A stretch of DNA of 64,000 nucleotides from Streptomyces calvus (lineage in GTDB: Bacteria > Actinomycetota > Actinomycetes > Streptomycetales > Streptomycetaceae), in contig NZ_VCNP01000017.1 of NCBI RefSeq assembly GCF_006782915.1, positions 1 through 64,000 of the forward strand. The letters are read 5' to 3'. Shown here piece after piece: positions 9,540-32,963 of the stretch. Both the position numbers and the translations under genes were made by a program. The stretch's first letter is position 1, and the number at the start of each line of letters is the position of its first letter. The notes under the pieces are model-generated. The model worked only from the letters and a program-made list of their open reading frames with translations. It made no database searches and was not told the origin of the DNA.

Positions 9540-9563
9540 GTGCTCCTCCTTCACGGGCTCCGG

Positions 9564-12500: not shown

Positions 12501-15500
12501 GGGCATGGAGGTCTTCTTGACCTGGCCGACCGCGTCGTAGACCGTCTCGGTGTAGACGTTCGGGTCGTTGTAGCGGGCGTCCGCCGGGTCGTAGGGCTGG
12601 TACTGCTTGACCGGGCGGTTCAGCGCGTCGTACTCGGTGCGCTGGGTGAACGCCTCCGTCGTCCCGGCCGCGGTGGCCCGCGGGGTCAGCACCTTGGTGG
12701 TGTTGCCGACCTCGTCGTACTCGTACTTCGTGGTCCGGTACGTGATCGGCGAGGTGTCCGAGTGCGGGATCTTGACCTCGGTGGTCTTGCCGCGCTCGTC
12801 GTAGGTGACGGTGGAGGTGTTGTTCTCCGCGTCCGTGGAGGAGACGACCCGCGAGTCCTTGTCGTAGGACCGCTTCGTGGACTTCCCCGCCGCGTCGGTC
12901 ACCGTGGTGATGCGGTGGTTCCAGTCGTACGCCGTCTTGGAGGTGAAGTCGTCGGGGTCCGCGGTCGCGTTCTTCTTCGGGTCGATGACCGTGACGACGT
13001 TGCCGACGCTGTCGTAGACGTACGAGATCCGGTCGCCGCCCGCGTTGACCACGGAGGTGAGCTGGTAGATCTCGTTGTAGTGGTTGGTCGTGGTGTACGA
13101 GCCCGCCACCGCGCCGGCGACGTTGCCCTTCGGCTCGGTCGTCGTCCTGAGGTTGCCGACCTTGTCGTAGGTGTACGTCGTCACCCGCGGCACCGACTGG
13201 TTGTTGGCGGGAGCCGTCGCCGAGGTGACCTGGTCGGCGGCGTCGTACGACGCCTTCGACACCGCCCCGTGCGGCGCGGTGGTCTCCACGACGTTGTCGT
13301 TCGGGTCGTACTTCGGCGCCGGAGTGGTGATGAGGATCCCGGCGTCCTGGTCCTTGGGCACCGTGCTGACCAGCGGACGCCCGTAGGTGTCGTAGGTCTG
13401 CGTGGTCTTCTTGCCCAGGGCGTCGACGACCTCGGTGACCTGGCCGCGCTCGTCGTACACGTACGACGTGGTCGTGTCGAGCGCGTCGGTGATCTTCGCC
13501 GGGTAACCGGTCGGACCGAACTCGCTGTTGGTCGTCGGGTTGCCGTTGGCGTCGGTCGCCCGCGTCAGCTGGCCGTACCCGTCGTACTCGTACGACGTGG
13601 TGTAGTCGCCGGCGGTCGCGGTGGCGACGCCCTTGGGGTCGGTGACCGTCTTCAGGTTGCCGAAGGTGTCGTACCCGAACTGCCAGGAGTGGCCCAGCGG
13701 GGACGTCTTGCGGAACAGGTCCGCGGCGAAACCGTCGGCGCGGGTGGCGTACTCGAACGTCGCCGCGTGCTCCGGGTACGAGCCGGTGCCGGTGCCGCAG
13801 GTGGTCGCCGGGTCCGGGGGTGTGTTGCCGTTCTCCTTGATGGACTCCGCGTCCAGCTTCCACAGCGGGTAGCCGGTCTTCTGGTCGTAGCAGAACGCGG
13901 TCTTGGCGCCGTTGTCCTCCGTCAGGAGAGTGACGTTGTTGTCCGCGTCCCAGCTCAGGTCGATCTTCTGCGACTTGGCGTTGACCGTCCGCACCGGCCG
14001 GGCGAAGTCGTCGGTGACGTACGTCGTCGCGTGCGCCTCGGCGTCGGTGACGGTGGTGTCCGTGAACTTGGTGTTCGTCGTGTTCGCCGCGTAGGCGAAC
14101 CCGGTGTCACCGCCGAGCCGGTCGTTGATCGTCTTCGTCCACCAGTGGTACTTCGGGTCGTCGCCGGTCTGCGGGGAGTAGTACGTCAGCCGGGTGGCGT
14201 TGCCGCGCGGGTCGGTGGCCTTGACCAGCTTGACGTTCTTGTTGCCCTGGGTGGCGTCGTAGGTGAACGTGAAGACCTTGGGCTGCGCGGAGCCGTCACC
14301 GTCGGTGAACTGCCCGAGCAGGCCCTTGTCGGTGTAGTAGAAGGAGATCTTCCGGCCCGAGATGTCCTTGATGGACTTGACGTGGTCGTAGATCTTGGAG
14401 TTGGTCAGGTTGGAGCCGGTGACCTTGGCGCCGGTGTCGTCGATGTAGTCGTACGACGCGTCGCCCTTGCGGTAGTAGTCGACGGTCAGCGACTGACGGC
14501 CCGCCGGGTCCGTGATGTAGGTGAGGAACTTCGTCGGCTTGTTGTTGGACTTGCGCTCCTCGTACGTGTACGTCTGCGTGTTGCCGTTCTTGTCGACGAC
14601 CGACGTCAGATAGCCGTCGCAGCCGAAGAGGAAGCGGGTGCCGTCCGGACGCAGCAGCGTCCAGGCGTCCGGAACCGGGTCCTTGTCCGGGGTGCAGTCC
14701 AGGTCCGGCTTGGCGGTGAGGCGGTAGTGGACGCCCGCGGGCGCCTTCCAGGTGCCGTCGTCCTGCTTGCGGAAGACGTGCGTGGTGCCGTCACCGTCCG
14801 GCAGGCGGACCTCGGTCGGGTGCGGGTTGGGGTGGAAGTCCAGCGGCGCGCCGAGCCGGATGGGCCCGGCGAACTGGGCGGACCAGCCCGCTCCGATCAC
14901 CGTGTCGGAGGTGTCGAGCGAGTTGTACGCGAACCTGGCGAACGTCGTCAGCCCGCGACCGGGGTTGGAGAACGCGTTGTAGGACCAGACGCTGTTGCCC
15001 GCGGCCAGGTTGTTCATCACCGTGGACCCGGCGCCGGTGTTCTTGCCGGTGTAGGCGTAGAACTTCTCCAGGCCCAGGGTGTTGGAGGTGGGGTCCTCGA
15101 CCGCGATGTTCTGCTTCAGGCCGGGGATGCCGCCGGTCCCGTCGGAGAGCCAGGCGCCGGTGGTGGTGTCGAGGAGGTCCCAGGTCAGGACGTAGTCGGT
15201 GCGCTTGTTGCCCGAGCCGCTGTTGATGGGGGTCTTGACCTGCGCCTGGAGGGTGACGGTGTCACCGGGGACGACGTCCTTGGGCAGGGCCGTGCGGACC
15301 TGGTTGCCGCCGGTGGTGGCGTCGGTGCCGTCGGGCAGCGCCCAGGTGTAGGACAGCGCCCGGTCGGCGGCCTTCCAGGTGGTGTCGGTGGTGTTGGTGA
15401 GAGTGAACTCGACCGAGTACTCCGAGTTCGGGGTCATCCGCGCCGGGGTCTTCGGCGCGTGGTAGGTGGAGGCGGTGGTCGCGTCGACGTAGGTGACCAC

Positions 15501-18320
15501 CATGCGCGGGCGCAGCCGCTTCTCGCCCGCCTCGGAGGAGAGGAAGACGGTCCGCTCCTGCTGGACCGACTCGTCCCGCATCCTCACCAGCACGCCCTGC
15601 CCGGTGCCGGGGTCGCGCACCCAGTCCTGGACCAGGCTGGTGGCGTTCCAGTCGCGGCGGGAGGGGTCGTTGCTCATCGCCGCGACGGTGTCGGCGAGCG
15701 CGGCGCCGGCGTCCCCACCGGGGGTGGTCCAGTCGGTGGTGGCGTCGGCCTTGGTCCAGGTGGCCGTGGCCTCGTCGAAGTCACGGGTCAGCGGGCGCAT
15801 CTCGTACACCGCGCCGGAGGCCCCGGTGGTGGTCTGCGTGCCCCACAGCCGCAAGGTGGCGTCCAGGACCCGCGCGGACGTCGGCAGGCCGAGGTCGGGG
15901 AACTTCAGCGCCGCCCGGGTGGTGCCGTAGGAGGGGGAGTTGTTGCCGACCGCGAGCCAGTTCTGCGGCACGCCGTCGGTGAGCGTGTCGTGCGGGGTGG
16001 CCGACTCCGTCGAGGACAGCGTGGTGTCCTGAGCCGCCTCGACGACCTTGGTGGTACGGCCCGCCTTCGGCAGCCGCACCAGCTGGGTCGGCGCCGCGGT
16101 GACCCGGCCGTCCTTGGTCTTGACGGCGACCATGTAGTAGTACGCCCGCCCGAACGGGTCCGAGCTGTCGGCCGCGGTCGGGGTGGCGGAGGTGTCCGTG
16201 TAGGAGGTGGTGTTCGAGGCCACGGGCGCGACCAGGGTCGCGGCGGACGGGGTGAACGTCTGGAACACCGAGCGGTGGACCTGGTACTCGACGATGTCGT
16301 CGGCGGTGGTGGCCGTGGACGGGTCGGTGTAGGCCGACCACTTCAGCTCCGCGCCGGTGTCGTGGATCGTCGTCGGCGGGTCCAGCTCGACGCCGGGCCG
16401 GCCGTAGGTGAGGACCAGACGCGGGTAGTTGGCCGTCTCCCCGTTGTAGGCGAACTCGCTGCCCTCGTAGCGGGGGCCGCCCTTGGGGCCGTCGGCGGAC
16501 TCGTCGCCCGCCTTGACCACGAACCCGTGGTTGTCGTGGGTGCCGTCGATCCACTGCTGGACCGTCCTCGTCACCGGGAACGAGTGCCAGGTGTTCACCT
16601 GCGAGGGCTGCTTGGTGACCACTCCGCCCTTGGTGAACCGCACCGAGTCCGCGATCACCGCGGTGCCGGTGGACGCCGGTCCGTCACCGAGGACGACCTT
16701 GCCCACGGTGCCCGCCTTGAAGCGGTGCGTGCCCAGGGTCTTCCACACGCCCGCGGTGCCCGCCGACTGGTCGACGGTGTACGTCGTGGAGCCGCCGTCG
16801 TAGGTGACCGTGTAGGGGGCGTTGGTGGCACGGTCGGCGGCGGGCACGTAGTGCGCCTCGACCTGGTACTCGCCGTCCTCCGGCAGGCTGGGCTGCCAGG
16901 TGTAGGTGTCGCCGGCGACGGTGTCCTTGTTGTAGCGGTAGTCCTGGTTGGTCGCGTACTGCGTGTACGCCGTGTTCCCCGAGACGGGCCAGGAGCCCTT
17001 CGCGGCCGTGGTGCCCAGGTCACCGTCGTCGACCAGCACCGACGTGCCCGACAGCTCACCGGTCAGACCGCTGGCGTTGTTCCAGGTCGCGCCGGACTCC
17101 GACCAGGCGCCGGTGGCGCGGTGCGCCTCCAGTTGCACCTCGGTGGTGCCGGTGGTGTGGGTCTGGTCGTAGTACAGCCGCAGATCGGCCGAGTCCAGCT
17201 TCGTCCCGGCCGGGATGCTGCCGATGGGGAAGCGCAGCAGGGCGCGGGAGCTGCCCGTGGAGGTGTTGCCGACCGACAGGCGCCAGTTGTCGTCGTAGTT
17301 CGATGTCGGACCGTCCGACGAGATCATCACGTCCTGCGCCGTGGACGGCGTCGGGGCGATGGAGATCGTCGGGTCGATGGTGACCGGATACCGCCGCTCC
17401 TTGGCCGCCAGCCACTTGGCGTCCGGCGTCACGGCCAGCTTCCAGGACGAGCCGTCTCTGGTGAGCTTCTGGGCGACCTTGGTGCTGTAGCCGGTGCCGT
17501 AGGGCGACTCGCGGTCCTTCGCCGCGTCCGTCATGAACGCCGCGGGCATCACCAGCACCGGATCGGCCGACTCACCGTGGAAGGCGATCGAGCCGTCCTT
17601 GCGCGCCTTCGGCGTCAGACCGTCGGTGTCCAGCGTGAACGTGAAGGTCACCGGCCCGTCCGGGGCCCCGGCCAGGACGATGTTCTCCTTCACCCGTCCG
17701 GGACCGACCTGGTACGACAGATCGGCGCCGGGGAGCGCGTCGCGGTAGGTGACGGTGTCGCCCTCGGCCACCGGCGCCAGCTCCGCGGCCCCGGGCAGAC
17801 CGACCGTCACGGCGTGCCCGTCCGCGGACTCCACCCGCAGCAGGCGCTCCGCGTCCGAGCCGAACCAGCTCCGCGTCGCGTTGCTGGTGTTGGCGAACTC
17901 GAATCCCTTACGGCCGCTTTCCTCGACCGTGGGGTCGATGTCCTTCCACGACTTCCCGGAACGGTAGGCGGTGGGGGTGGCCGAGACCTCCGCCTGTACG
18001 CGTCCGTCGGAAAGCTGCCAGAACCGGGCGTTCGCGGTGCGCCGCCCGGCCAGTTCCTTGACGCGCTTCACCTTCGGTGCGTTCTTGCCCCGGGGCAGTT
18101 TCTGCCGGTCGGCTATCCCGGCCTCGTTGTGCGAGGGCGGTTCGGCGTCTTCGCCGCCGTCCTCGCCGTCGTCACCGAACCAGCCCTTGACGGTGTCGAC
18201 GACTCCGCTGCCGTCGTCACCGTCGGACGCTGGTGCGGCGTGGGCGAGCTGGGGCAGCGCGGTGCTCATCACCGCTGCCGCCACCAGGCAGGCCGTTGCC
18301 CTTCCCAGTCTGGGTCTCAC
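9564..18320 (-). CDS. Secreted RHS/YD-repeat polymorphic toxin with C-terminal nuclease-like domain
   Basis: The 2918-residue protein has a Sec signal peptide (cleavage after AHA near residue 28), then an Asp/Glu-rich linker. Two DNRLRE-type modules are recognisable (RALLRFPIGSIPAG; RAALKFPDLGLPTS), as are two golvesin-like modules with CBM-like strands (TYTWQPSLPEDGEY; TAYVKYPKV). A long run of YD/RHS repeats follows (YDxxGRL-type), then an RHS core ending NRYAFTGGNPVSSVELDGH near residue 2640. Next come a hydrophobic segment (FAIAIPIAAVVVVAVVAAVA), a Pro/Thr linker and a ~200-residue tail. The tail motif NACHLLGKQLSGSGTQLENL resembles the His motif of the DNA/RNA non-specific endonuclease NS_2 (EssD-like) type. 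The shell would encapsulate the toxin. The SUKH gene follows directly. Confidence 0.85.
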   Translation of the reverse strand: MRPRLGRATACLVAAAVMSTALPQLAHAAPASDGDDGSGVVDTVKGWFGDDGEDGGEDAEPPSHNEAGIADRQKLPRGKNAPKVKRVKELAGRRTANARFWQLSDGRVQAEVSATPTAYRSGKSWKDIDPTVEESGRKGFEFANTSNATRSWFGSDAERLLRVESADGHAVTVGLPGAAELAPVAEGDTVTYRDALPGADLSYQVGPGRVKENIVLAGAPDGPVTFTFTLDTDGLTPKARKDGSIAFHGESADPVLVMPAAFMTDAAKDRESPYGTGYSTKVAQKLTRDGSSWKLAVTPDAKWLAAKERRYPVTIDPTISIAPTPSTAQDVMISSDGPTSNYDDNWRLSVGNTSTGSSRALLRFPIGSIPAGTKLDSADLRLYYDQTHTTGTTEVQLEAHRATGAWSESGATWNNASGLTGELSGTSVLVDDGDLGTTAAKGSWPVSGNTAYTQYATNQDYRYNKDTVAGDTYTWQPSLPEDGEYQVEAHYVPAADRATNAPYTVTYDGGSTTYTVDQSAGTAGVWKTLGTHRFKAGTVGKVVLGDGPASTGTAVIADSVRFTKGGVVTKQPSQVNTWHSFPVTRTVQQWIDGTHDNHGFVVKAGDESADGPKGGPRYEGSEFAYNGETANYPRLVLTYGRPGVELDPPTTIHDTGAELKWSAYTDPSTATTADDIVEYQVHRSVFQTFTPSAATLVAPVASNTTSYTDTSATPTAADSSDPFGRAYYYMVAVKTKDGRVTAAPTQLVRLPKAGRTTKVVEAAQDTTLSSTESATPHDTLTDGVPQNWLAVGNNSPSYGTTRAALKFPDLGLPTSARVLDATLRLWGTQTTTGASGAVYEMRPLTRDFDEATATWTKADATTDWTTPGGDAGAALADTVAAMSNDPSRRDWNATSLVQDWVRDPGTGQGVLVRMRDESVQQERTVFLSSEAGEKRLRPRMVVTYVDATTASTYHAPKTPARMTPNSEYSVEFTLTNTTDTTWKAADRALSYTWALPDGTDATTGGNQVRTALPKDVVPGDTVTLQAQVKTPINSGSGNKRTDYVLTWDLLDTTTGAWLSDGTGGIPGLKQNIAVEDPTSNTLGLEKFYAYTGKNTGAGSTVMNNLAAGNSVWSYNAFSNPGRGLTTFARFAYNSLDTSDTVIGAGWSAQFAGPIRLGAPLDFHPNPHPTEVRLPDGDGTTHVFRKQDDGTWKAPAGVHYRLTAKPDLDCTPDKDPVPDAWTLLRPDGTRFLFGCDGYLTSVVDKNGNTQTYTYEERKSNNKPTKFLTYITDPAGRQSLTVDYYRKGDASYDYIDDTGAKVTGSNLTNSKIYDHVKSIKDISGRKISFYYTDKGLLGQFTDGDGSAQPKVFTFTYDATQGNKNVKLVKATDPRGNATRLTYYSPQTGDDPKYHWWTKTINDRLGGDTGFAYAANTTNTKFTDTTVTDAEAHATTYVTDDFARPVRTVNAKSQKIDLSWDADNNVTLLTEDNGAKTAFCYDQKTGYPLWKLDAESIKENGNTPPDPATTCGTGTGSYPEHAATFEYATRADGFAADLFRKTSPLGHSWQFGYDTFGNLKTVTDPKGVATATAGDYTTSYEYDGYGQLTRATDANGNPTTNSEFGPTGYPAKITDALDTTTSYVYDERGQVTEVVDALGKKTTQTYDTYGRPLVSTVPKDQDAGILITTPAPKYDPNDNVVETTAPHGAVSKASYDAADQVTSATAPANNQSVPRVTTYTYDKVGNLRTTTEPKGNVAGAVAGSYTTTNHYNEIYQLTSVVNAGGDRISYVYDSVGNVVTVIDPKKNATADPDDFTSKTAYDWNHRITTVTDAAGKSTKRSYDKDSRVVSSTDAENNTSTVTYDERGKTTEVKIPHSDTSPITYRTTKYEYDEVGNTTKVLTPRATAAGTTEAFTQRTEYDALNRPVKQYQPYDPADARYNDPNVYTETVYDAVGQVKKTSMPPSEGQTVRNDTTFTYFDNGWAKSATDPWDIVTTYDYNDLGQQTKRTLTSAGGDADRTMTWAYYPNGALKSKSDDGVPVGKHVVLVDNSDTQNTAATGTWTKGDSTGQQGYDHRTHAAGTGTDAFTWKLNIPQDGTYTAYVKYPKVTGAATAAKYTLTHGTTTEPSVTRDQSANTGTWVSLGSYSLEQGADAELKLEQSGGGVVVADAVKLVRDTSGETDNEKHTFTYGYDVNGNLTSIDDTSPDAEAVTYSVAHDALNQVKSVTEALADQRTKTTAFTYDANGRLETVTHPDQFSKYTYDLRELVKTVSVGKSATDTDPKVSSYTYTDRGLKLRETKANGNTVDYTYYLDGAVKSTVEKKADGSTLVASHSYAYDPNGNKARDTAKKMNADNHAAYLESTTDYTYDPADRLAKSVKTGNGAGTETYVHDDNSNVVSQSVRGTSTTFVYDRNRLLTSTTGGATSRFNYDPFGRQESVLAGGEIVSRNVYDGFDHVVESQQRGADGAMKSTTYAFDPLDRTTSKTVDGKTTDFSYLGLSGEVLDERVAGELTKSYQYSPWGERLSQVKHHADGTTEDGFYGYNGHTDVETVTDGDGDTKATYGYTAYGKDDESEFTGIDKPDATDPTKEEYNPYRFNAKRWDARSGTYDMGFRNYDPGLNRFTTRDMYNGALADMSLGADPYTGNRYAFTGGNPVSSVELDGHFAIAIPIAAVVVVAVVAAVATDEAVSEVQGRPSFLDSLGDALTSTAEGIRDAVNRAGQEEPKPSPTPTPRPAPRPTPDNGSRGKCGGGWVEHGDLDAANGNRATGVRACLTEGYLAANPGTKTNVSVVAPPGYRWAQRTAGWLGAHPVDQNINACHLLGKQLSGSGTQLENLATCARGANAPQDGSQQGTNNMQNYENQVREAVAAGQDVYYTVTPRYSGRRTVPTGFTLSAYGTNPDGTPGLVIPPVFITNTLAGRNLGMFNDPNTGRQVPTGSTP

Positions 18321-19170: not shown

Positions 19171-19851
19171 GAGGCGGGGCCTGAGAACCTACGCTGGGCA
19201 GGCTCGCCGTCCGCAATGCCCGCGGCACGGACATCCCGCCGCCCGAGCGGGCGACTCGTCTGCCCGCCACCCCACCCGAAGCCCCCTGACCGCCCCTCAG
19301 CGCCGGGCACAGGCCGGCGAAGGTGTCCGCACCGCAGGGCCTCGGAAAAGATCCCGGCGACCCGCGCCTCTGGCTCCCGCAAGCGGACTGCCCCGACCTG
19401 GAACCCGGTCAGCATCATCCGCATGAACCGCACGCAGGATCGCGAACTACGACTGGAGTACCAGCACTCCATCAGAAAGAGCGTCAGATGAGCGTCACGA
19501 GCGCCATTTCAGCGTCGAAATGTCGCCCGTAACACCCACACCGCACATCATGCGCACGAGTAAAACCGCAGGGTCAGGATCCCTTCACGGCCGGTTCGAG
19601 GATCGCGACACACTCCACGTGGTGCGTCATCGGAAAGATGTCCCGGCAGGATGGATCTCGCATAACACCAGGTAAAGAGCCGTTTTCTGCTCCGTCGAAG
19701 GGCCCTTCGTGCGCACGGAGCGTCGAACGGGCGTCACGCCCAAGGACCACGTCCCGATCGGTCATTGCTGGGGAATTCATGAGCCCTGCCAGTACAGCCG
19801 GCCGCTTGGCCTCCACGGCCCAGTGGCCGGGCCGCCCGATGAGCGAAGTGG
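19171..19851. other. Gene-poor stretch containing the distal copy of the trmA 3' end
   Basis: I can support no intact gene. The one notable element is the repeat at 19574-19640. The sequence between it and the TetR gene stop at 19852 shows no product I recognise. Confidence 0.6.
19574..19640 (-). repeat. Copy C of the trmA 3' end (attachment-site-like repeat)
   Basis: On the minus strand this encodes IFPMTHHVECVAILEPAVKGS and a stop, matching the end of the methyltransferase gene at 31568. Over the 41-bp core (19593-19633) it matches copy A at 35 of 41 positions. All six differences are silent, so it behaves like a real, diverged methyltransferase gene end. The downstream ACCGCAGG(G)TCA is also shared. 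Confidence 0.75.
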
Positions 19852-20481
19852 TCAGTTGTCGGGCTGCTTCTTCGAGCGCCGAGGGGCGGCGGCCTGGGTG
19901 GGGCGAGCGCCGGCCTCGGTCTGCTGGGCGTACACGGCGTTCGTCACGAGCTCGCGCGCGTATGCGGCGTCCAGTCGGCCAGGGCGGAAGAGGATGCGGT
20001 ACATGATCGGCGCCACGACACGGTCGATCAGCAGTTCCGTCTCGGGCACCGGCTCTCCCCGCCGCACCGCACGGGCCAACATGACGTCGATCTGCTCTGC
20101 GGCATACGCCGAACACTGACCGGCATTGGTCCCGTCGGGGTCGCCGAGCAGGGCGTCCCGGATGTAGGCGCGCCCGGGCGGCGAGGCCATCTCGTCGACG
20201 AACTGTTCCGCCCACGCGTCGAGATCGGCCCGCAGGCTTCCGAGATCGGCCGGATCCGTTTCCGGGCGCAGTCGTTCGACGGCCACGTCTGACAGGAGTT
20301 CCTGCAGGTCGCCCCAACGACGGTAGATCGTGGAGGGGGTCACGCCCGCCCGCGTGGCCACCATCGGGACCGTGAGCGCGTCGCGGCCCACCTCCCCTAC
20401 GAGTTCACGTACCGCCGCATGGACGGACTCCTGTACGCGTGCGCTGCGCCCGCCGGGGCGGACCATGGGCTTGGGACTCAT
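19852..20481 (-). CDS. TetR-family transcriptional repressor
   Basis: The 209-residue protein has a typical TetR N-terminus: SARVQESVHAAVRELVGEVGRDALTVPMVATRAGVTPSTIYRRWGDLQELL, the helix-turn-helix ending in the TIYRRW recognition helix. A variable ligand-binding domain follows, with LLIDRVVAPIMYRILF resembling the TetR_C_16-type C-terminus. I chose ATG 20481 because AAGGTGG lies 6 bases upstream. It faces the amidase cluster tail to head on the same strand. Twin palindromes in the amidase/MFS divergent promoter are the likely operators. The ligand is unknown. Confidence 0.85.
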   Translation of the reverse strand: MSPKPMVRPGGRSARVQESVHAAVRELVGEVGRDALTVPMVATRAGVTPSTIYRRWGDLQELLSDVAVERLRPETDPADLGSLRADLDAWAEQFVDEMASPPGRAYIRDALLGDPDGTNAGQCSAYAAEQIDVMLARAVRRGEPVPETELLIDRVVAPIMYRILFRPGRLDAAYARELVTNAVYAQQTEAGARPTQAAAPRRSKKQPDN

Positions 20482-20623
20482 GCGATCCACCTTAATGCGA
20501 TTTTGTAGCTTCTAGGCGGTGGCCGGCGTCGGCGGCCCGCGGGGCTACGTGTCCGGGCGGCCGAGCACGGCGGACGCGCCTGCGGCGACGCGACCGCATG
20601 CCGGCTGGAACGTCCGCCTTCCT

Positions 20624-22015
20624 TCAGGCGGCGAGGGGAGCAAGCCGCCCCGCGTCGGCCACCGACTCCTCGTAGACCCGGCCCACCCGGAGCACCGTCG
20701 CGTCGTGGAAGGGGCGTGCCATCAGCTGCATACCGATCGGCAGTCCGGCGCGGTCGTGACCGACCGGCAGGGTGAGGGCCGGGACGCCGGTGATGTTGGC
20801 TGGGGCGCAGAGGCGGACGTAGCTGTCCGACACGGCCTCGGTCGTGCCATCGGCCCACTCGACGGCTCCCTGACCCGCCTCGACGGCGGTCATCGGCACC
20901 GTCGGCGCGGCGAGGACGTCGATTCTGTCGAACATGCGAGCCCAGGCGTCTCGCATCATGGTGCGGGCCCGCTGGGCGCGGAGGTAGTCGCCCGCAGAGG
21001 TGAGTTCGCCGGCCTCCAGCAGGACGCGAACGTCCGCCGCGTACAGGTCGGGGGTGGCCCGCAGCGACCGCTCGTGGTAGGCGGTGGCCTCGGGAACCAT
21101 CAGCCCCCACTGAACGGCCTGGACGTAACGCGCCATCGGGATCTCGACGTCGACGAGCTGCGCCCCCAGCTCCGCCAGTCGCTTGATCGCGCCGCGTACG
21201 GACTCCTCGACCTCGGGCGCGACCCGGTCGAAGTAGTGGTTCCGCGGTACGCCGACCTTCAGTCCTCGCAGGTCGCCTCCCGGGAAGCGGTCCAGCATCG
21301 GGCCGGACACGCTCGCCGGGTCGCGCGGGTCGTGGCCGGCGGTCGCCGACAGCACCAGCGCGACGTCCTGGACGGTGCGGGTGAGAGGCCCCACGTGGTC
21401 CAGGGACCAGGACAGCGAGGTCACGCCTGTGCGTGGGACCAGGCCGTAGGTCGGCTTGAGGCCCACCACGCCGTTCAGGGCAGCGGGGACCCGGATGGAA
21501 CCGCCCGTGTCCGTGCCCATGGCGAACGTCGCCCCGCCGGCGGCGACAGCCACCGCCGAGCCGCCGCTCGACCCGCCCGCAACCCGGCTGTGGTTCCAGG
21601 CGTTGTTCGTCTGCGGAGTGGTCAGGCCGTAGGCGAACTCGTGCGTGTGTGTCTTGCCCAGGAGGACGGCCCCGGCGGCGCCGAGACGTTCGGCCACCCG
21701 GCTGTCGCGTTCCGCCACGTGCCCTGCCCGGACGTGCGAGCTCGCCGTGGTGGGTATCCCCTCAGCGTCGATCAGATCCTTGAGCGCCATGGGGATCCCG
21801 TGCAGTGGCCCGCGCGGTCCGCTTGCGGAGATCTCCCGTTCGGCGCGGACCGCGGCGGCCAGGGCCGCGTCGGCGGTGACGGTGACGTAGGCGCCCAGGC
21901 GTCCTTCGACGGCGGCAATACGGGCGAGCACCGATTCGGTGAGTTCGACGGGGGACAGCTCCCGTGCGCGCACCGCGCGGGAGGCTTCGGTCAGCGACAG
22001 CTCAAACGGTTGCAT
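20624..22015 (-). CDS. Amidase-signature hydrolase (AtzE/GatA-like)
   Basis: The 463-residue amidase-signature enzyme has a complete Ser-cisSer-Lys triad: Lys79 (MALKDLID), cis-Ser149 in AGGSSGGS and the nucleophile Ser173 in GTDTGGSIRVPA. It hydrolyses an amide or carbamoyl bond; the substrate is not evident. Its start overlaps by 14 bp a small upstream gene of the AtzG type. In Pseudomonas the amidase AtzE needs AtzG to be stable, and GatA needs GatC in the same way. So this is probably a two-subunit amidase. The nearby MFS and metallo-hydrolase genes, and the divergent control, suggest a small catabolic or detoxifying pathway. Confidence 0.8.
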   Translation of the reverse strand: MQPFELSLTEASRAVRARELSPVELTESVLARIAAVEGRLGAYVTVTADAALAAAVRAEREISASGPRGPLHGIPMALKDLIDAEGIPTTASSHVRAGHVAERDSRVAERLGAAGAVLLGKTHTHEFAYGLTTPQTNNAWNHSRVAGGSSGGSAVAVAAGGATFAMGTDTGGSIRVPAALNGVVGLKPTYGLVPRTGVTSLSWSLDHVGPLTRTVQDVALVLSATAGHDPRDPASVSGPMLDRFPGGDLRGLKVGVPRNHYFDRVAPEVEESVRGAIKRLAELGAQLVDVEIPMARYVQAVQWGLMVPEATAYHERSLRATPDLYAADVRVLLEAGELTSAGDYLRAQRARTMMRDAWARMFDRIDVLAAPTVPMTAVEAGQGAVEWADGTTEAVSDSYVRLCAPANITGVPALTLPVGHDRAGLPIGMQLMARPFHDATVLRVGRVYEESVADAGRLAPLAA

Positions 22016-22208
22016 CGGCGTTCCCCTGTCCGGCTCGGTAGGAGGACGCGGGAGGGGTCTCGCCGAAATCGAGCTCGCGCAACGTGCTGATCACGGAGTG
22101 GATGTAGTTGGCCGTCATGGCCACTCCTTCGTGTCGGCCGTCCCCGAGGGGGAGCCCCGCCCGTAGCGCCACTCGGGCTGCCTCTTGGGGGGTGAGTTCG
22201 CTGGTCAT
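22002..22208 (-). CDS. AtzG/DUF4089-like small amidase partner subunit
   Basis: The 68-residue protein, the same length as AtzG, reads MTSELTPQEAARVALRAGLPL, then a central helix (HSVISTLRELDF) and the tail motif ETPPASSY. That is the helix-helix-(L.F..E..P...Y) pattern of the AtzG/GatC-like family. The start ATG 22208 has a GGAAGGAAG site. It overlaps the amidase by 14 bp, giving translational coupling. It is expected to pack against the amidase rather than catalyse anything itself. Confidence 0.7.
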   Translation of the reverse strand: MTSELTPQEAARVALRAGLPLGDGRHEGVAMTANYIHSVISTLRELDFGETPPASSYRAGQGNADATV

Positions 22209-22272
22209 GGCTTCCTTCCGGATCCGTACGGCGCGACGGGCCGGGGCTGGTACAGGACCTCCGACCACCGCA

Positions 22273-22337
22273 AAAGCGAATCGTTTGCTTTAGTCGATCG
22301 TAGGACCTACGGTGACTTAAAGCAAAGCAATCGCTTT
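22273..22337. promoter_or_regulatory. Twin palindromic operators in the amidase/MFS divergent promoter
   Basis: There are two 8-3-8 inverted repeats of the same type: 22273-22291 (AAAGCGAA-TCG-TTTGCTTT) and 22319-22337 (AAAGCAAA-GCA-ATCGCTTT). They are centred 46 bp apart, covering both divergent promoters. The TetR gene at 19852 is the natural candidate binder. Confidence 0.65.
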
Positions 22338-22355
22338 AGCACTGGAAGGACCCTC

Positions 22356-23681
22356 ATGCAGAGCGTCCCTGCGGGCCTCGCGCCTCCCCGCACCTCCCCA
22401 TCCGGACGCCTGCCGTTCGCACTGCACGCCTCGATCCTGATCGCGCTGCTCGCCGCATCCAGCGCGCCGACCCCGCTGTACCCCCGCTACCAGGCTCAGT
22501 GGCAGTTGTCGTCCCTCGACGTCACTGTGGTCTTCAGCGCCTATGCCCTGGCGCTCCTGATCGCACTGCTGACGACCGGAACCCTGTCCGACCATGTCGG
22601 ACGCCGCCCCGTGCTCCTGGGCGCGCTCGCGGTCCAGGTCGCCTCCATGGCACTGTTCGCGACGGCCGGCGGCCTGACCACCCTGATCGGCGCCCGCGTG
22701 CTGCAGGGCATCGCGACTGGCGCGGCGACCAGCGCAGCAGGGGCGGCTCTCCTCGACCTGGAAGACCCCGCCCGGCCGGGTCGCCCCGCTCTGGCCAACA
22801 GCATCGCGCCCATGACGGGCATGGCGGCCGGCGTCCTGGCAGCCACCCTCATGGTGCGCTTCGCCCCCGTTCCGACGATCACGGTGTACGCGGCCCTGAT
22901 CGCCGTGTTCGCCGCGCAGGCCATCGCCCTTGCGTCGACGCCCGAGACCGTCCGCCGCCGTCCCGGAGCACTGCGTTCGACGCGGCCCGACCTGGCGCTG
23001 CCGTCGGCGGCCGCCCACGCTCTCCTGCTCAACGGCGCCGGCGTCGTCGCCGTCTGGGCACTCGGCGGCTTCTACTCGTCCCTGGGGCCGGGCTTCACAC
23101 GGCTCATCTCCCCCGGCGGACCCGAATACGCCGGCGGCATGGTCTTCTTCACGCTGACGGCCGTCGCCGCCCCGACGGTGTACTTCACGCGCAGGATGCG
23201 TGCCGACGTCTCCGCCCTTCTCGGAAGCTGCGCGGTGATGCCGGCGGCCGTCCTGACCCTGGGTGCCCTCCATCTCGCCGGCCCCGTACTTCTCTTCGCC
23301 GGGGCGGCGCTGGCCGGGTTCGGCTTCGGAGCCGTCTCCCAGGGTGCGCTGCGCGCGGTCGTCGACTCGGTCCCGGCCCGGGAGAAGAGCGGCACGCTCG
23401 CCTCCTATTACGTACTCAGCTACCTGGCGATGAGTCTGCCCGCCATCGGCGCCGGCGCTCACACCGCCGGTTTCGGGCTGCGTGCGGCAGCACTGGCCCA
23501 TGCCGGCTGCGTGGCCGCACTGGCGACCGTCGCAGTCGCGACGCTGACCGCGTCGCTGCGCAGTCGACGCCGGGCACCGTCCCCGGACACCCACTCCCGC
23601 CCGGCAACGAGCAACTACACAACCGCCTCACCCGACACACCCGCTCCGGACATCTCCGTCCTCGCGACCAACAACAGGTAA
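22356..23681 (+). CDS. MFS transporter
   Basis: The 441-residue protein shows 12 hydrophobic segments and MFS signatures, including GTLSDHVGRRPVLLGAL after TM2 and a VRAVVDSVPAREKSGTL loop. The substrate is unknown. Its fit to drug/proton antiporter-like subfamilies suggests export, but uptake of the amidase substrate is also possible. The start ATG 22356 follows GGAAGGA. It is divergent from the amidase pair, shares their operators, and is followed 11 bp later by the metallo-hydrolase. Confidence 0.8.
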   Translation: MQSVPAGLAPPRTSPSGRLPFALHASILIALLAASSAPTPLYPRYQAQWQLSSLDVTVVFSAYALALLIALLTTGTLSDHVGRRPVLLGALAVQVASMALFATAGGLTTLIGARVLQGIATGAATSAAGAALLDLEDPARPGRPALANSIAPMTGMAAGVLAATLMVRFAPVPTITVYAALIAVFAAQAIALASTPETVRRRPGALRSTRPDLALPSAAAHALLLNGAGVVAVWALGGFYSSLGPGFTRLISPGGPEYAGGMVFFTLTAVAAPTVYFTRRMRADVSALLGSCAVMPAAVLTLGALHLAGPVLLFAGAALAGFGFGAVSQGALRAVVDSVPAREKSGTLASYYVLSYLAMSLPAIGAGAHTAGFGLRAAALAHAGCVAALATVAVATLTASLRSRRRAPSPDTHSRPATSNYTTASPDTPAPDISVLATNNR

Positions 23682-23692
23682 GGAAAGTCGCC

Positions 23693-24616
23693 GTGTTCAC
23701 CTCATCGCAAACGACCGAGTCCATCACTCCCCCCGCCTCTTCCTGGACGGTGGGCAACCACACCGTACGACGCATCGACGAAGTGGTCCTGCCCGCCCGG
23801 ACCGGTCCGTGGCTGCTGCCCGGGGCAACCACCGACCTCGTGAGCCGGACTCCCTGGCTGAGCCCCGAATTCGCCGACGAACAAGGCGTCCTGCGCCTGG
23901 CGAGTCACAGCTTCGCCGTCGAGGTGGACGGCATGCGGGTGCTGGTGGACACCGGCATCGGAAACGGGAAGCGGCGCGCCAACCCCGCCTGGCACAACCT
24001 GAACAGCGACTACGAAGCACGGCTACGGGCGGCGGGCTTCGCGCCGGAGAGCGTCGACCTCGTGGTCCTGACCCACCTCCACGCCGACCACGTGGGGTGG
24101 AACACGCGTGCCGAGGGCGACGCCTGGGTGCCCACCTTCCCGAACGCGCGCTATCTCACCTCACGTACCGAGTGGGACTACTGGGCGGGTGTCGACATGG
24201 AGGAGGCGCGTCGGCAGATGTTCCGGGACTCGGTCCATCCCGTCCGGGAAGCAGGCCTGTTCGACCTCATCGATGTCGCGGACGAGGGCACGGACGTCGC
24301 TCCGGGCATCCGTCTGCTGCCCACCCCCGGCCACACACCGGGGCAGGTAGCGGTGGAACTGAGCAGCCGTGGCGAGACCGCACTGGTCACCGGTGACAGC
24401 ATCCACCACCCGGTCCAGATGGCACATCCGGAGCTCTGCAGCTGTGTGGACGTCGCTCCCGAACTCGCGGCCAGGACCCGGAACCAGGTGCTCGGCTCAC
24501 TGGCCGGTACGTCAACTCTCCTGCTGGGGAGCCACTTCCCGCCGCCGACCGCCGGACACGTGCTGCGCGAGGACGGCGGCTTCCGACTGGTCCCGTCCCG
24601 GCTCCCTCAGGGGTAA
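23693..24616 (+). CDS. Metallo-beta-lactamase-fold hydrolase
   Basis: The 307-residue protein has the full MBL metal set: THLHADHVGW (HxHxDH), a second-shell His in LPTPGHTPGQ, an Asp in VTGDSIHHP and a distal His in LLGSHFPPP. The layout matches the lactonase/AHL-lactonase-like subgroup that hydrolyses esters or lactones; the substrate cannot be read. The GTG start has an AAGGAAAG site and lies 11 bp after the MFS gene, so they form one transcript. Together with the amidase pair it suggests a short hydrolytic route. Confidence 0.8.
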   Translation: MFTSSQTTESITPPASSWTVGNHTVRRIDEVVLPARTGPWLLPGATTDLVSRTPWLSPEFADEQGVLRLASHSFAVEVDGMRVLVDTGIGNGKRRANPAWHNLNSDYEARLRAAGFAPESVDLVVLTHLHADHVGWNTRAEGDAWVPTFPNARYLTSRTEWDYWAGVDMEEARRQMFRDSVHPVREAGLFDLIDVADEGTDVAPGIRLLPTPGHTPGQVAVELSSRGETALVTGDSIHHPVQMAHPELCSCVDVAPELAARTRNQVLGSLAGTSTLLLGSHFPPPTAGHVLREDGGFRLVPSRLPQG

Positions 24617-24988
24617 CGCCGTCGGCGGCTGAAGCGGATGGGAGGCACCCGGGGCGTGCCGCGCACCGATTCGCACCGAGTCCGCGCGGGTGACGTCCTG
24701 GGCGTCCGCGACCGGACGGCCCGGGAGCGGCCATGAGACCCCTCCGGGATGCGCTCCGTCGTCACCGAGACGTCAGGTGAACGCCAACGCCCCATGTGCA
24801 ATGCTTCGTCGCCTCTACCACATGTGACCAGCGGAAGTCATCTCTCCGTTTCTCCGATGTGGCTGGTTATGATCGGCACATCACGTCGCGTCAAAGCCGA
24901 ACCGGACTTCCCCCAGTTCTGAACTCAGAACTGCGTCCGGTCTCGGCGGTCGGGCCGTCCCCCCTGGTTCCCTGCTCTCCGAGGACTG
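24617..24988. other. Gap before the conservon
   Basis: I see no gene and no clear inverted repeat. It presumably holds the end of the MFS/hydrolase transcript and the promoter of cvnA. Confidence 0.5.
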
Positions 24989-27316
24989 ATGTCTCCCATA
25001 GACCCCGAAGGCACACGAGGGCAGCTGACGACTCGTCGGCGGCGTACTCTGCGCCTGCGTACGCTGCTCATTTGGCTGGCCATCGTCCCTATCCTGGCGA
25101 TGAGCGCCCAAGTGGCCATGACCGCACAGCCGCTGGTACACCAGTCAAAGCAACTACGCGCTGATGTGGCAGTCGCTGAGCAGACCGATGTACCCCTGAC
25201 CAGGCTGATGGTCGAACTGCAGGCTGAGCGGGCGATGACCGCCACACGGTGGGCGAGCGGCTCCGTGTCCGAGAAGGAGCTGCGCGAGCAGCGCGCGGCC
25301 ACGGACCGGGCCGCGGACGAGTTCCGCCGGGCGTCGGACGGAGCTCTGGCGGCGACCGGGCGTGAGGACGATCATTACGTCGCGGAGCTGAAGCACAGCC
25401 TCGCGGATCTGGCCGCGTTCCGCGAGCGCGCGGACGCCCGCAGCGGGGACGCGGACCGGACGATCGGCTACTACTCCGACCTCGTCGACCACATCATCCG
25501 GGTGTACCAGAACGAGTTCAGCCATGCGGAAGACGCCGAGCTCATCCAGGAGAGCGGCCTGGTCGTCACGGTGTTCACGGTGACCGAGATGGTGGCACGC
25601 GAGACCACCATCCTCGCCATGGCCGGGCCGTCCAGGCGTCTGAGCCCTTCCGGGTTCGCCGAATTCGTCAACTCCGTCGGATCCCAGCGGTACCAGTACG
25701 ACGAGTGGGTCGCGCCGTATCTGACGGCCGAGGACAAAGCGGCCTACGACCAGGTCTTCGCCTCGGACGGCTGGAAGACGAAGGTCCGTCTCGAGGACGT
25801 GGTCATCTCCGACCACCAGAGCACCGCGTCCGGCATCGAGCTGCCCGAGGAAGCGGACGCCTGGCAGGACGCGTATGACGAGTTCGCGCCGCGCCTTGCC
25901 GCGCTCAACGCGGAACAGGGGCGAGCACTGCTCGTGCACGCCGACGCCAAGGCCACGCAGTTGGAGAACGAGGTCATCTGGCTGATCGTCGGAAACGGCG
26001 CAGCCGTCATCGCCGTCGCGGCCGTCATCGTGCTCACCACGCGCTCCGTGCTCCGCCGCCTGCGCGGTCTGCACGAACGTACGGTGGCCATTGCCGAGGA
26101 CACGCTGCCGGATGTCGTTGCCCGGCTCCAGCGCGGGCAGCCCGTCGACGAGGACGCGCTGCCCGCGGTGAGCGGAGACCGGGACGAGGTCGGACGTATC
26201 AGCGACGCGTTCGCCCGGGTCGTCTCCGTATCCGTCGACGGGCATGCGCGACTCGCGGCCGAGCGTCAGGGTTTCGGTATGTTCGCCGCGGGCATCGCCT
26301 CGCGCACCGGAAACCTGGTCAGCCGCCAGTTGGCCCTCACCGACGAACTGCAGGACGCCTTCGGGCACAACGAGGAGCTTCTCGCCCGGTTGATGCGATC
26401 CGACCAGTTGACGGTGGGTATGCGGCGGCAGATCGAGAACCTGCTCATCCTGGCAGGTGGGGAGATTCCCGATCCGCACACCGAGCCCATGCGCGTCGCC
26501 GACCTGCTGCGCGAGGCCGCCGCGGAAGTCGAGGACTTCCGGCGGATCGAGCGCCAGGCCTTGGACGAGATCAGCGTGGCACCGCGGGTGATCAGCGAGA
26601 TCAGCCACCTCCTGGCAGAACTCCTGGACAACGCCACCCGGTTCTCCCCGCCGCAGTCGAAGGTGGTCATCCGTGCCGAACTGGTGACGGACGGGCTGCT
26701 GGTCGACATCGAGGACCGCGGGCCTCGGGTGACCGCCGCCACCTACGAGGAGATGAACGGACGTCTGCACTCGGCCCCGCCGTATGCCGTCCTGGCGGAG
26801 AACGCGCACCGGCTCGGACTGTTCGTGGTCGGCCACATCGCCGAACAGCTCGGGGCCACAGTGACGCTGCGCCGCTCGGTGTACGGGGGGACGTCGGCCG
26901 TGGTGATCCTCCCCGAGGAACTCCTTGTGCCGACCGAACCGGTCCGGGCGGGAAAGGAAGCGCCGCGCGCGGCGATGCCCGCCCCGGCACCGGGCCCGTT
27001 CGACGAGCGCAAGCCCGAACTGGTCCTGCACGCGAAGACCAGGTCGGCCGCCCGCAGGACGCCGGAGCGCTTGCCCGAGCGGCCGGTGGAGAGCAAGCCG
27101 TCGGTTCCTTCCCCGACACGGAACGGTGACGCGAAGCCGGCCCTCCCCGAACGGATCCCACAGGCTCACATCGCCGAGCAGCTCCGCGCGCCGCACGCAC
27201 CGGAGACCGGCGTCCATCAGGACGCGGCGACACCCGAAGAAGTGGCCGACGCCTGGGCGGACTACGAACACGGGACTCAGACAGTGGAAGAAGAACTCCG
27301 ACAGGATCAGCCATGA
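24989..27316 (+). CDS. cvnA: Conservon histidine-kinase-like sensor CvnA (nitrate-sensing NIT domain)
   Basis: The 775-residue protein has a first transmembrane helix (~24-45), a long extracytoplasmic NIT-type helical domain (rich in VELQAERAMTATRWA-like helices) and a second helix (~329-352). A HAMP-like region and a dimerisation region follow, then a GHKL ATPase with the N-box ELLDNATRFSPP, a GLFVVGHIAEQLGA region and a Pro-rich tail. No phosphoacceptor H-box is seen, as in known CvnA proteins. It forms a membrane-associated complex with CvnB-CvnD. It is the first gene of a four-gene overlapping operon and carries most of its charge in the C-terminal 150 residues. Confidence 0.9.
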   Translation: MSPIDPEGTRGQLTTRRRRTLRLRTLLIWLAIVPILAMSAQVAMTAQPLVHQSKQLRADVAVAEQTDVPLTRLMVELQAERAMTATRWASGSVSEKELREQRAATDRAADEFRRASDGALAATGREDDHYVAELKHSLADLAAFRERADARSGDADRTIGYYSDLVDHIIRVYQNEFSHAEDAELIQESGLVVTVFTVTEMVARETTILAMAGPSRRLSPSGFAEFVNSVGSQRYQYDEWVAPYLTAEDKAAYDQVFASDGWKTKVRLEDVVISDHQSTASGIELPEEADAWQDAYDEFAPRLAALNAEQGRALLVHADAKATQLENEVIWLIVGNGAAVIAVAAVIVLTTRSVLRRLRGLHERTVAIAEDTLPDVVARLQRGQPVDEDALPAVSGDRDEVGRISDAFARVVSVSVDGHARLAAERQGFGMFAAGIASRTGNLVSRQLALTDELQDAFGHNEELLARLMRSDQLTVGMRRQIENLLILAGGEIPDPHTEPMRVADLLREAAAEVEDFRRIERQALDEISVAPRVISEISHLLAELLDNATRFSPPQSKVVIRAELVTDGLLVDIEDRGPRVTAATYEEMNGRLHSAPPYAVLAENAHRLGLFVVGHIAEQLGATVTLRRSVYGGTSAVVILPEELLVPTEPVRAGKEAPRAAMPAPAPGPFDERKPELVLHAKTRSAARRTPERLPERPVESKPSVPSPTRNGDAKPALPERIPQAHIAEQLRAPHAPETGVHQDAATPEEVADAWADYEHGTQTVEEELRQDQP

Positions 27317-27714
27317 CGACAACGAACGACATGATCTACAGCGTCCTGGACAACAACCTGAGCAGGATCGCCGGCATCCAGGGAGCCGTGCTCCTGTCCA
27401 ACGACGGGATCAAGCTCAGCTCGTACGAGCTGGAACGGGACCAGGCGGAGCGCATAGCCGCCGCGTCCTCCGGCATCGCTTCCACGATGAAGGCGATATC
27501 CAGGGAGGTCGACGGCGGCCGGGTGATCCGCCAGCTGGTCGAGATGGACGACTGCTATCTCTGCATCGTCGGGTGCGGGGAGGGCAGCACGCTCATCGTG
27601 GTGACCTCCCGCAAGGCGCGGCTGGGGGAGCTGGGCGGGGAAGCCGTGCGCACCGCCCAGGCGCTCGGTGAGTGGCTGAGCACGCCTGATCGCGGCCAGG
27701 CGCAGCCGTCGTAA
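27313..27714 (+). CDS. cvnB: Roadblock/LC7-domain protein CvnB
   Basis: The 133-residue protein is a complete roadblock/LC7 domain: LDNNLSRIAGIQGAVLLSNDGIKLS, then ERIAAASSGIASTMKAISRE and the CGEGSTLIVVTSRKARLGEL end. Such proteins act as scaffold or GAP-like partners of the small GTPase CvnD. Its ATG overlaps the cvnA stop by 4 bp, so translation is coupled. Confidence 0.9.
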   Translation: MTTTNDMIYSVLDNNLSRIAGIQGAVLLSNDGIKLSSYELERDQAERIAAASSGIASTMKAISREVDGGRVIRQLVEMDDCYLCIVGCGEGSTLIVVTSRKARLGELGGEAVRTAQALGEWLSTPDRGQAQPS

Positions 27715-28085
27715 TGGCGGACGAGTCCAGGCCGGGAGAGGGAGGCCACCGCCGGACGCGGCTGTACGCGCTGACCGATGGACGTACGGCGGCTGCACAC
27801 ACCGCCCTCACCATGGACACCACGATCACGGCGGTGGCCGTCGCGGACGGCCACAGCGGCCTGCCCAGCGAGTGGCAGGCCATCCTCGCGATGTGCTCGC
27901 CTCCGGGCGGCCTGGCGGTCGCCGAGATCGCGGCGCGCATGCGCATGCGCCTCACTCCCATGACGCTTCTTCTCGGCGAACTCGCGGAGCGGGGGCTGAT
28001 CGAGCACCGGCCACCCCTGGAAGGGGCCGAGACCACCAATGTCCACCTGCTCATGAGAATCAGGGACAACCTTGCCTGGATATGA
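27714..28085 (+). CDS. cvnC: DUF742 winged-helix protein CvnC
   Basis: The 123-residue DUF742 protein has RPGEGGHRRTRLYALTDGRT at the N-terminus and a winged-helix segment (AVAEIAARMRMRLTPMTLLLGEL, RGLIEHRPP) typical of CvnC. Family members link the kinase-like sensor to the GTPase. The start codon shares one base with the cvnB stop. Confidence 0.9.
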   Translation: MADESRPGEGGHRRTRLYALTDGRTAAAHTALTMDTTITAVAVADGHSGLPSEWQAILAMCSPPGGLAVAEIAARMRMRLTPMTLLLGELAERGLIEHRPPLEGAETTNVHLLMRIRDNLAWI

Positions 28086-28662
28086 CGCCCCTGCCCGTGA
28101 AGCGGCCCCCGTCAAAATCCTCATCGCTGGGGGATTCGGCGTCGGCAAGACGACCCTGATCGAGACGGTCTCCGAGATCGAGCCGTTGCGCACCGAGGAG
28201 CGGCTGACGAGCGCGGGCGTCGGCGTCGACGACCTCGACGGCATCGAGTCCAAGGCGGTCACCACCGTCGCGATGGACTTCGGCCGCATCACCCTCACCG
28301 ACGCACAGGTCGTGCTCTACCTGTTCGGCACACCTGGCCAGGAGCGCTTCTGGTTCATGTGGGACGACCTGCTGAACGGGGCCCTCGGGGCGATTGTCCT
28401 TGTCGACACACGACGCCTCGACCGCAGTTTCCCGGCCGTCGACTTCTTCGAGAACCGAGGGGTTCCGTTCATGGTCGCCGCGAACTGTTTCCACGGCGAA
28501 CAGCCCTACACCGTCGAGGAGATCAGGGCGGCGCTGCATCTGCGTGACCCGAACACCCCCATCCACTTGCTCGATGCCCGCCTCCGTGACGACGCGCGCG
28601 GTGCGCTGCTCTCGCTTCTGGACATGCTCATCGCCAAAGCCGGGGGCGCGGCGACCGGCTGA
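28072..28662 (+). CDS. cvnD: Conservon small GTPase CvnD
   Basis: The 196-residue Ras-like GTPase has the P-loop GGFGVGKTT (20-28). Switch II is FGTPGQERF, where Gly-Thr replaces the canonical DTxGQ Asp, as usual in CvnD. The guanine-specificity motif is AANCFHG instead of NKxD, also a family feature. It cycles with CvnB and transmits the CvnA signal. It starts at TTG 28072, overlapping cvnC by 14 bp. This ends the operon; a perfect hairpin lies 140 bp downstream. Confidence 0.9.
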   Translation: MPGYDAPAREAAPVKILIAGGFGVGKTTLIETVSEIEPLRTEERLTSAGVGVDDLDGIESKAVTTVAMDFGRITLTDAQVVLYLFGTPGQERFWFMWDDLLNGALGAIVLVDTRRLDRSFPAVDFFENRGVPFMVAANCFHGEQPYTVEEIRAALHLRDPNTPIHLLDARLRDDARGALLSLLDMLIAKAGGAATG

Positions 28663-28822: not shown

Positions 28823-28835
28823 AGAAGACCGCAGG

Positions 28836-28899
28836 TCACAGCCCCTTTGCAGGAGGCTCCAGAATCGCCACGCACTCCACGTGATGCGTCATCGGGAGC
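28836..28899 (-). repeat. Copy B of the trmA 3' end (attachment-site-like repeat)
   Basis: The 41-bp core at 28855-28895 is identical to copy A in the live methyltransferase gene. On the minus strand it encodes LPMTHHVECVAILEPPAKGL and a stop. The ACCGCAGGTCA element just beyond the stop is also shared with copy A. It closes the hydrolase reading frame. Confidence 0.8.
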
Positions 28900-29606
28900 A
28901 TGTCGGCACCGGACGGCGATGAGAAAGCGCAGGTCAGAGGGGAACCGAGGGTGACCAGCGTCAGCGGCGGCCGCTCCGGCCGGAGAGCGCACAACACCTC
29001 GTAGGCAACCACCGAGCCCAGCGAGTGCCCCACAACCACCCGGGTGTCCGACGTGATCAGCTCCGCAGCCCGAGCCCGTACGGCGTCACGCAGCTCGGGC
29101 TCTGTGAAGTAGCGACGTACCTGCTTGAGGTTCGAGATGAGTAGCCGGTCGGAGACAGCACCGAAGAATCGAGTGCGGGTGAGGCGTGCAGGCGCGGCGA
29201 ACCCGGTCCACAGAAAGGGGGCGACGGGCAAGATGGCCGAGGGCACCACGGGCAGCGGGGCCAGCGCCCGTACCGTCCGGCCCCCAGTGTCCGGGCCGGG
29301 GATACCGGGATCCAGCCGAGCGGCCTCCCGCCACCAGGTCTCCAGCAACTCGGCCTCGAACCCGGGCTCCACATCCTCCGCCCGGTCGTAGGGCTCGCCG
29401 CGCGTGCCGGTCTGCCTGTAGAGGTCCCCATACCCGGCGCAAGCAATGTCGTCGTCCGACAGCCGCCCGAGCGTGGGATCTCGGCGTAAGGCGAGTCCGA
29501 CTCCGCCGCGCCACGCCGGCGCGATTTCCGCCAACATGGTGTCAGCGGTATCAAGTTGACGCTCCACCCCATGCACCACGACAACCCGGCTCATGGTCCC
29601 CCTCAT
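28836..29606 (-). CDS. Alpha/beta-hydrolase truncated and fused to a methyltransferase tail
   Basis: The frame encodes 256 residues. It begins like a PGAP1-type alpha/beta hydrolase (MSRVVVVHGVERQL) and contains the nucleophile elbow VVVGHSLGSVVAYEVLC near residue 200. After TLGSPLT, where the Asp/His part of the triad should follow, the sequence runs within a few codons into PMTHHVECVAILEP, the end of the RNA methyltransferase, and stops. So the catalytic Ser is present but Asp and His are missing. The start may be ATG 29606 or 29594. It is likely a cut gene whose 3' end was lost at the integration point. Confidence 0.65.
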   Translation of the reverse strand: MRGTMSRVVVVHGVERQLDTADTMLAEIAPAWRGGVGLALRRDPTLGRLSDDDIACAGYGDLYRQTGTRGEPYDRAEDVEPGFEAELLETWWREAARLDPGIPGPDTGGRTVRALAPLPVVPSAILPVAPFLWTGFAAPARLTRTRFFGAVSDRLLISNLKQVRRYFTEPELRDAVRARAAELITSDTRVVVGHSLGSVVAYEVLCALRPERPPLTLVTLGSPLTCAFSSPSGADMLPMTHHVECVAILEPPAKGL

Positions 29607-32896: not shown

Positions 32897-32963
32897 GGTG
32901 GGGTGACTCCGCAACCTCGTGAACGGGTGAGCGGGCGATGGCCCGCGACAACAGCCCACCAGT

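Follow-up and report, generated by a model that had tools for sequence, protein, structure and literature searches.

A putative TetR-controlled amidase and metallo-hydrolase module with twin operators in Streptomyces calvus and related actinobacteria

In AtzEG, the 1-carboxybiuret hydrolase and its small subunit AtzG, a short GatC-like partner is encoded directly upstream of an amidase-signature enzyme. AtzE is insoluble without its small subunit, according to an excerpt of one report (PMC6219798). We describe here a locus of Streptomyces calvus with the same arrangement, located at positions 19,852 to 24,616 of a 64,000-nucleotide stretch of DNA that we analysed as a whole (the window; NCBI RefSeq assembly GCF_006782915.1, contig NZ_VCNP01000017.1, positions 1 to 64,000, forward strand). 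The locus differs from AtzEG in that the partners of its amidase are a metallo-hydrolase and a major facilitator superfamily (MFS) transporter, and in that its amidase scores below the AtzE cut-offs. It resembles GatCAB in that its small subunit shares a fold and a profile match with GatC and that GatA chains are among the best Protein Data Bank (PDB) matches of its amidase; however, the amidase falls short of the GatA cut-off, the host genome holds a separate GatC, and the module has a tetR gene and operators alongside. The metallo-hydrolase shares its fold and dinuclear-type metal ligands with methyl parathion hydrolase (MPH) and the lactonases AidC and LrsL. Divergent TetR/MFS efflux pairs (L142–L145 and L147–L149 in our locus numbering) have a homologous TetR, an MFS transporter and twin operators like those of the module, but neither the module's operon of amidase and small subunit nor its metallo-hydrolase is present there, and the promoter pattern runs in no more than one direction. 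We judge it rather likely that the locus is a TetR-repressed cassette for hydrolysis, plus efflux, of a compound containing ester or lactone as well as amide bonds, serving inducible detoxification or degradation.

The module consists of five genes in two divergent blocks. On the minus strand lie the genes of the small subunit (22002–22208, 68 residues), the amidase-signature hydrolase (20624–22015, 463 residues) and the TetR regulator (19852–20490; the conserved ATG start is probably at 20481, judging from the MSRKPM... starts of relatives). The plus strand carries the MFS transporter (22356–23681, 441 residues), an optional part of the module, and a metallo-beta-lactamase-fold hydrolase of the MPH/lactonase branch (23693–24616, 307 residues). 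Matches to TetR_N, TetR_C_11, Amidase, MFS_1 and Lactamase_B were above the Pfam cut-offs in the module proteins, those of the TetR protein at 34.6 bits for TetR_N (cut-off 24) and 74.4 bits for the C-terminal TetR_C_11 domain (cut-off 32). An initial annotation, made from the sequence alone, had placed tetR, the amidase and its small subunit opposite a divergent MFS and metallo-hydrolase pair across two palindromes, with the small subunit overlapping the amidase start. Gene coordinates and Pfam agree with this layout, and the overlap is 14 nt. Two details needed correction: the tetR gene, described as beside the palindromes, lies about 1.8 kb away, beyond the amidase, and the "four-gene order" counts five genes. 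The five proteins gave zero matches in PADLOC, so the module matches no PADLOC defence model.

A scan with the window amidase yielded 57 loci. Two of these (L086 and L087), with 36% identical amidases and no module, were excluded from all counts over 55 and are included in counts over 57 or 58. The small subunit, amidase, TetR and metallo-hydrolase occurred together in 49 of the 55 loci, on the same relative strands in 49/49, and amidase identity to the window among module-bearing loci went down to about 62%. The 14-nt overlap recurred in 45 of 54 loci. The MFS gene was intact in 17, partial in 4 and absent in 33 of the 55, one locus without the small subunit being unscored. From these gene counts we define the core as TetR, small subunit, amidase and metallo-hydrolase. 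A search for the same gene order elsewhere had been suggested together with the idea of a self-contained module, and the result bears that idea out: the core set was found in most of the related loci, and the same genes, orientation and operators recur in dozens of them, among Streptomyces and a small number of its relatives. Within the window's genus the small subunit had a patchy spread (65 of 295 genomes). Searches of the open-access PMC literature, covering titles and abstract openings, brought up no description of the module. In a Blastococcus locus (L074, 4067–7398), two amidases flank a small gene distantly resembling the window's small subunit, P0003 (41% over 39 residues, no Pfam match).

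Between the two blocks lie operator 1 (AAAGCGAATCGTTTGCTTT, 22273–22291) and operator 2 (AAAGCAAAGCAATCGCTTT, 22319–22337), two 8-3-8 palindromes with AAAGCRAW arms that are present exactly as claimed at the outset. A third, degenerate operator matching 12 of 16 arm positions lies directly upstream of tetR (20494–20512). With up to three mismatches allowed, the operator pattern matched only the two known sites in the window (0.09 matches expected from shuffles), a test that is post hoc because the pattern was derived from the sites themselves. One extra match in the 8.0-Mb genome (C35:4112, two mismatches) was regarded as chance. The operators are unusually well conserved: when the window was compared with the 57 loci, 53 of the 58 sequences had twin sites, at spacings of 46 bp (39), 47 bp (11), 42 bp (2) and 48 bp (1). 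The 106 twin sites gave the consensus AA(A/C)GC(A)A(A)-N3-palindrome, in which positions 1, 2, 4, 5 and 7 hardly vary; they had been chosen by a 12/16 pattern match, which biases them toward that consensus. Sites matching at least 14 of 16 positions numbered 127, whereas 12 permutations of the arm pattern gave 0–11. In 51 of 54 loci, the 130 bp preceding tetR contained a site of at least 12/16, versus 38 of 2452 control stretches, and this site was usually weaker than the twin sites. At four loci with other genes between tetR and the amidase (L052, L062, L082 and L085), one or two sites adjoin tetR. The sites beside these separated tetR genes and those at the distant TetR/MFS pairs indicate that TetR probably recognises the palindromes. 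Near the module of L068, a second TetR relative (9417–10097, minus strand, 46% identity) has a 12/16 site at 10109.

The operators enclose two predicted divergent promoters that overlap each other. The predicted promoter of the MFS and metallo-hydrolase genes (22285–22313, plus strand) comprises TTGCTT at 22285–22290, a 17-nt spacer and TACGGT at 22308–22313; that of the small subunit and amidase genes (22297–22325, minus strand) comprises TTGCTT at 22325–22320, a 17-nt spacer and TACGAT at 22302–22297. Operator 1 covers the −35 element of the former and the expected transcript start of the amidase operon, and operator 2 covers the −35 element of the latter and the expected MFS transcript start. 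Among 53 loci, the pattern TTGNNN-17/18-TANNNT occurred between the operators on the first strand in 51 and on the second in 50, and 48 had it on both; in 200 rounds of spacer shuffling, the corresponding counts averaged 2.2, 1.9 and 0.09 and never exceeded 9, 7 and 1. Overlapping promoters would be hard to use simultaneously, and TetR on either site is expected to block both, which would explain the fixed operator spacing of 46–47 bp.

We further compared the module TetR with its distant relatives. TetR homologs of about 48–59% identity in other families adjoin an MFS gene, lack the module hydrolases and keep twin sites. At one of these loci, L149, a distant (32%), unrelated-looking amidase adjoins the MFS gene; L146, a short contig, shows TetR and the sites only. 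In a tree in which L146 took the place of L147 and four TetRs of 41–45% identity served as outgroup, the 20 sampled module TetRs formed one clade (95/96) with the seven pair-type TetRs as nearest kin. An MFS match lies beside two outgroup TetRs (L154 and L158), an MFS-like gene was seen by eye in L151 and none in L159; twin sites were absent at all four. Since distant TetR–MFS pairs keep twin sites, a tetR/MFS efflux pair that gained hydrolases is the probable origin of the module. One hydrolase gain and several MFS losses would be the simplest reading of this comparison, not a proof.

The amidase residues K79, S149 and S173, presumably the Lys/cis-Ser/Ser triad by position, were at least 97% conserved across 51 loci. 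Against the AtzE models TIGR02715 and NF006631 the amidase scored 307.1 and 314.1 bits (cut-offs 425.75 and 461), and against the GatA model TIGR00132 it scored 326.7 bits (cut-off 481.1). The initial proposal of an AtzE-like amidase is refined accordingly: the amidase has an adjoining GatC/AtzG-like partner and scores below the AtzE family cut-offs. A motif search did not recover L125's own GatA. The small subunit had no Pfam match of its own, the AtzG-like family PF13318 included. Its profile found GatC as best PDB match (E 0.41), and an hhalign comparison with GatC gave 85.4% over 56 collinear columns, with 19 control slices at or below 2.6%. An AlphaFold model (predicted local distance difference test, pLDDT, 81) returned nine GatC/transamidosome chains among the Foldseek top ten; the tenth was 6c62_C (66 residues), which we take to be AtzG from its length and title. 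Each of these tests is weak alone, and together they agree and support a GatC/AtzG-like small subunit, as the initial annotation had it. Searching the PDB with the small-subunit sequence alone yielded no usable match, and a PF13318 search of 149 genomes of the phylum matched nowhere, 14 control genomes included, so that it is uninformative on absence.

The metallo-hydrolase keeps the metal ligands H128, H130, D132, H133, H214, D235 and H281 (HxHxDH, H, D, H), all at least 97% conserved in 46 loci. Its model (pLDDT 89) had Anc1-MPH, MPH, PoOPH, AbOPH, LrsL and AidC as nearest folds, with identities over the fold alignment of 23–27% to MPH, PoOPH, AbOPH and LrsL and 19% to AidC. The scores lay far below the equivalog cut-offs of AidB (94.9 of 360 bits), YtnP (79.5 of 425), AiiA (36.8 of 375) and AttM (43 of 390). 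On fold and ligands, the protein resembles MPH/lactonase enzymes. The MFS protein scored 75.5 bits against MFS_1 (cut-off 33.4) and reached no named-exporter cut-off among the best 25 of 28 NCBIfam models.

These data suggest how the proposed cassette might work. A TetR dimer on the two strong operators would silence both the small subunit–amidase and the MFS–metallo-hydrolase operon, and the weaker third operator would allow tetR autoregulation. The target compound or a relative of it would release TetR. Next, the metallo-hydrolase would open an ester bond, a lactone or something similar, and the amidase, kept intact by its GatC-like partner, would cleave an amide; where an MFS transporter is present, it would export the compound. 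Comparison across loci supports the gene set, operators, promoter-like sequences, ancestry and mobility of the module; TetR binding, induction, bond types, export direction and the order of steps are the parts that we infer. The module may be of use for inducer screening, since it joins two uncharacterised hydrolases to a built-in reporter in the form of strong operators under one regulator. It also suggests that amidases beyond tRNA and s-triazine chemistry are served by partners derived from GatC.

Several observations weigh against this reading. The loci were retrieved via the amidase, which skews the set to close relatives, and because they are related, their counts are not independent events. 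The MFS gene is often missing, so export would not be essential. The amidase reached no NCBIfam cut-off among the best 25 of 26 matching models and the metallo-hydrolase none of nine, so the bond types are taken from fold. Pfam matches of the small subunit were weak (GatC in 5 of 26 members, best E 0.006; AtzG-like PF13318 in 4 of 26, best E 0.014), its Foldseek E-values were 0.1–3, and its VIA Z of at most 5.7 is weak alone. Twin sites at 40–52 bp were missing in L074, L081 (which has two sites 25 bp apart), L084, L086 and L087, and no 12/16 site preceded tetR in L056, L060 and L076. In L152, a 76% identical TetR has one weak site and its 17 kb contain no match to the other four genes. The −35 elements of the predicted promoters are contained in the operators, leaving only the −10 elements as independent promoter evidence. 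Finally, only 41% of bootstrap trees united the pair-type TetRs, so that they may be one or two clades.

A narrower version of the cassette reading is tentative: a mobile cassette that would confer resistance to an undescribed class of actinobacterial natural products in two steps, by a lactonase and a GatC-partnered amidase, with one TetR, interleaved promoters, an array at the rlmD 3' end and a creatininase-type third hydrolase in some lineages. Two loci, L062 (Lentzea) and L085 (Streptomyces), have a creatininase-family gene (PF02633) that is divergent from tetR and separated from it by two operators, which also speaks for the main cassette reading; the gene's product scores below both the creatininase and the MftE equivalog cut-offs.

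The same gene bears on an alternative in which the module scavenges nitrogen: the amidase and small subunit, joined in these two loci by the creatininase-type enzyme, would break down a ureide or cyclic amide and so free ammonia, and the MFS protein would be an importer or a relic. AtzG–AtzE–AtzH relatives sit in clusters for nitrogenous compounds, as far as an excerpt of PMC6219798 states, and the 57% identical amidase of the Blastococcus locus L074, where TetR and the metallo-hydrolase have no match, has urease-alpha and CobW/UreG-type genes nearby. We keep this alternative because of those clusters and the urease-type neighbours in Blastococcus, yet we regard it as unlikely: the TetR/MFS kinship suggests efflux, the core includes a lactonase-type hydrolase, and the MFS gene is dispensable. 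Still less probable is a quorum-quenching unit in which the metallo-hydrolase degrades a butyrolactone-type signal sensed by TetR. The quorum-quenching lactonases LrsL and AidC among the nearest folds and the sub-threshold AidB and YtnP scores would fit such a unit, but those scores miss the cut-offs widely, and it leaves unexplained the amidase and its partner, which accompany the metallo-hydrolase in 49 of the 55 loci. Very improbable is a chance or loose association, in which some other regulator uses the palindromes and the genes merely travel in one island: the block does lie in an apparent integration hotspot beside unrelated cargo, but the sites also occur where tetR is separated from the amidase and at distant tetR/MFS pairs, and the orientation is kept in 49 of 49 loci with amidase identities down to about 62%.

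The hydrolysis cassette also appears to be mobile. Two 65-nt repeats (19572–19636 and 28834–28898) bracket the block; we take them to be the repeat copies B and C between which the initial annotation had correctly placed it. The first, listed on the plus strand, is an orphan copy of the rlmD 3' end (the last ~21 codons, read on the minus strand) and forms the left edge of the mobile segment. The second ends an open reading frame (28836–29606), and a third copy (31566–31630) is the real end of the intact rlmD gene (31568–32959). The right edge falls at 24617–24768: similarity to relatives ends at 24768 in 10 of 57 loci, most of which continue with a stretch common among themselves, and the window's right end looks rejoined there. 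With up to three mismatches, the genome holds three copies of the rlmD-end core, all in the window and in one orientation. Over the available flanks, and excluding a 20-nt match in L047, core copies lay on both sides of the module in 5 of 57 loci (L032, L033, L034, L036 and L046) and on one side in six more. Across the genus, 177 of 199 genomes contain one copy or more, counting the gene itself, with two to five in many of them. Copies lie on both strands in some genomes, which means that one shared orientation is not the rule everywhere; around neighbouring copies, the visible pairs share one orientation, with unrelated cargo between or near them. We read the rlmD 3' end as an apparent integration hotspot with tandem accretion, pointing to a site for cargo in the window's genus; searches of the open-access PMC literature, covering titles and abstract openings, brought up no description of an rlmD hotspot in Streptomyces. 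In two records of Actinomadura (Streptosporangiales), one of them titled 'UNVERIFIED_ORG', the module DNA was 90.7% (L039) and 88.5% (L044) identical, and the best RlmD match of those genomes was 56% and 54% identical to that of the window. Comparison thus supports movement of the module between actinobacteria.

Other genes were seen near the rlmD-end copies. In L173, cas genes (8541–15672; Cas3, CT1975 and Cas5 by Pfam), a defence cargo, lie between core copies at 1481 and 17004. Tyrosine integrases in L167 (6470–7729, plus strand) and L174 (4770–5756, minus strand) are candidates for the recombinase acting at this site. Two-gene pairs that look toxin–antitoxin-like by eye adjoin copies in L175 (13890–14557, with a PIN domain) and L163 (11876–12555, no Pfam match). 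In the window, a NIT/HATPase sensor kinase and a GTPase-like gene (24989–28662) separate the module from the rlmD-end copy that follows it, and together they presumably resemble a conservon. On the other side, a 2918-residue protein with YD/RHS-like repeats by eye (9564–18320, minus strand) adjoins the island.

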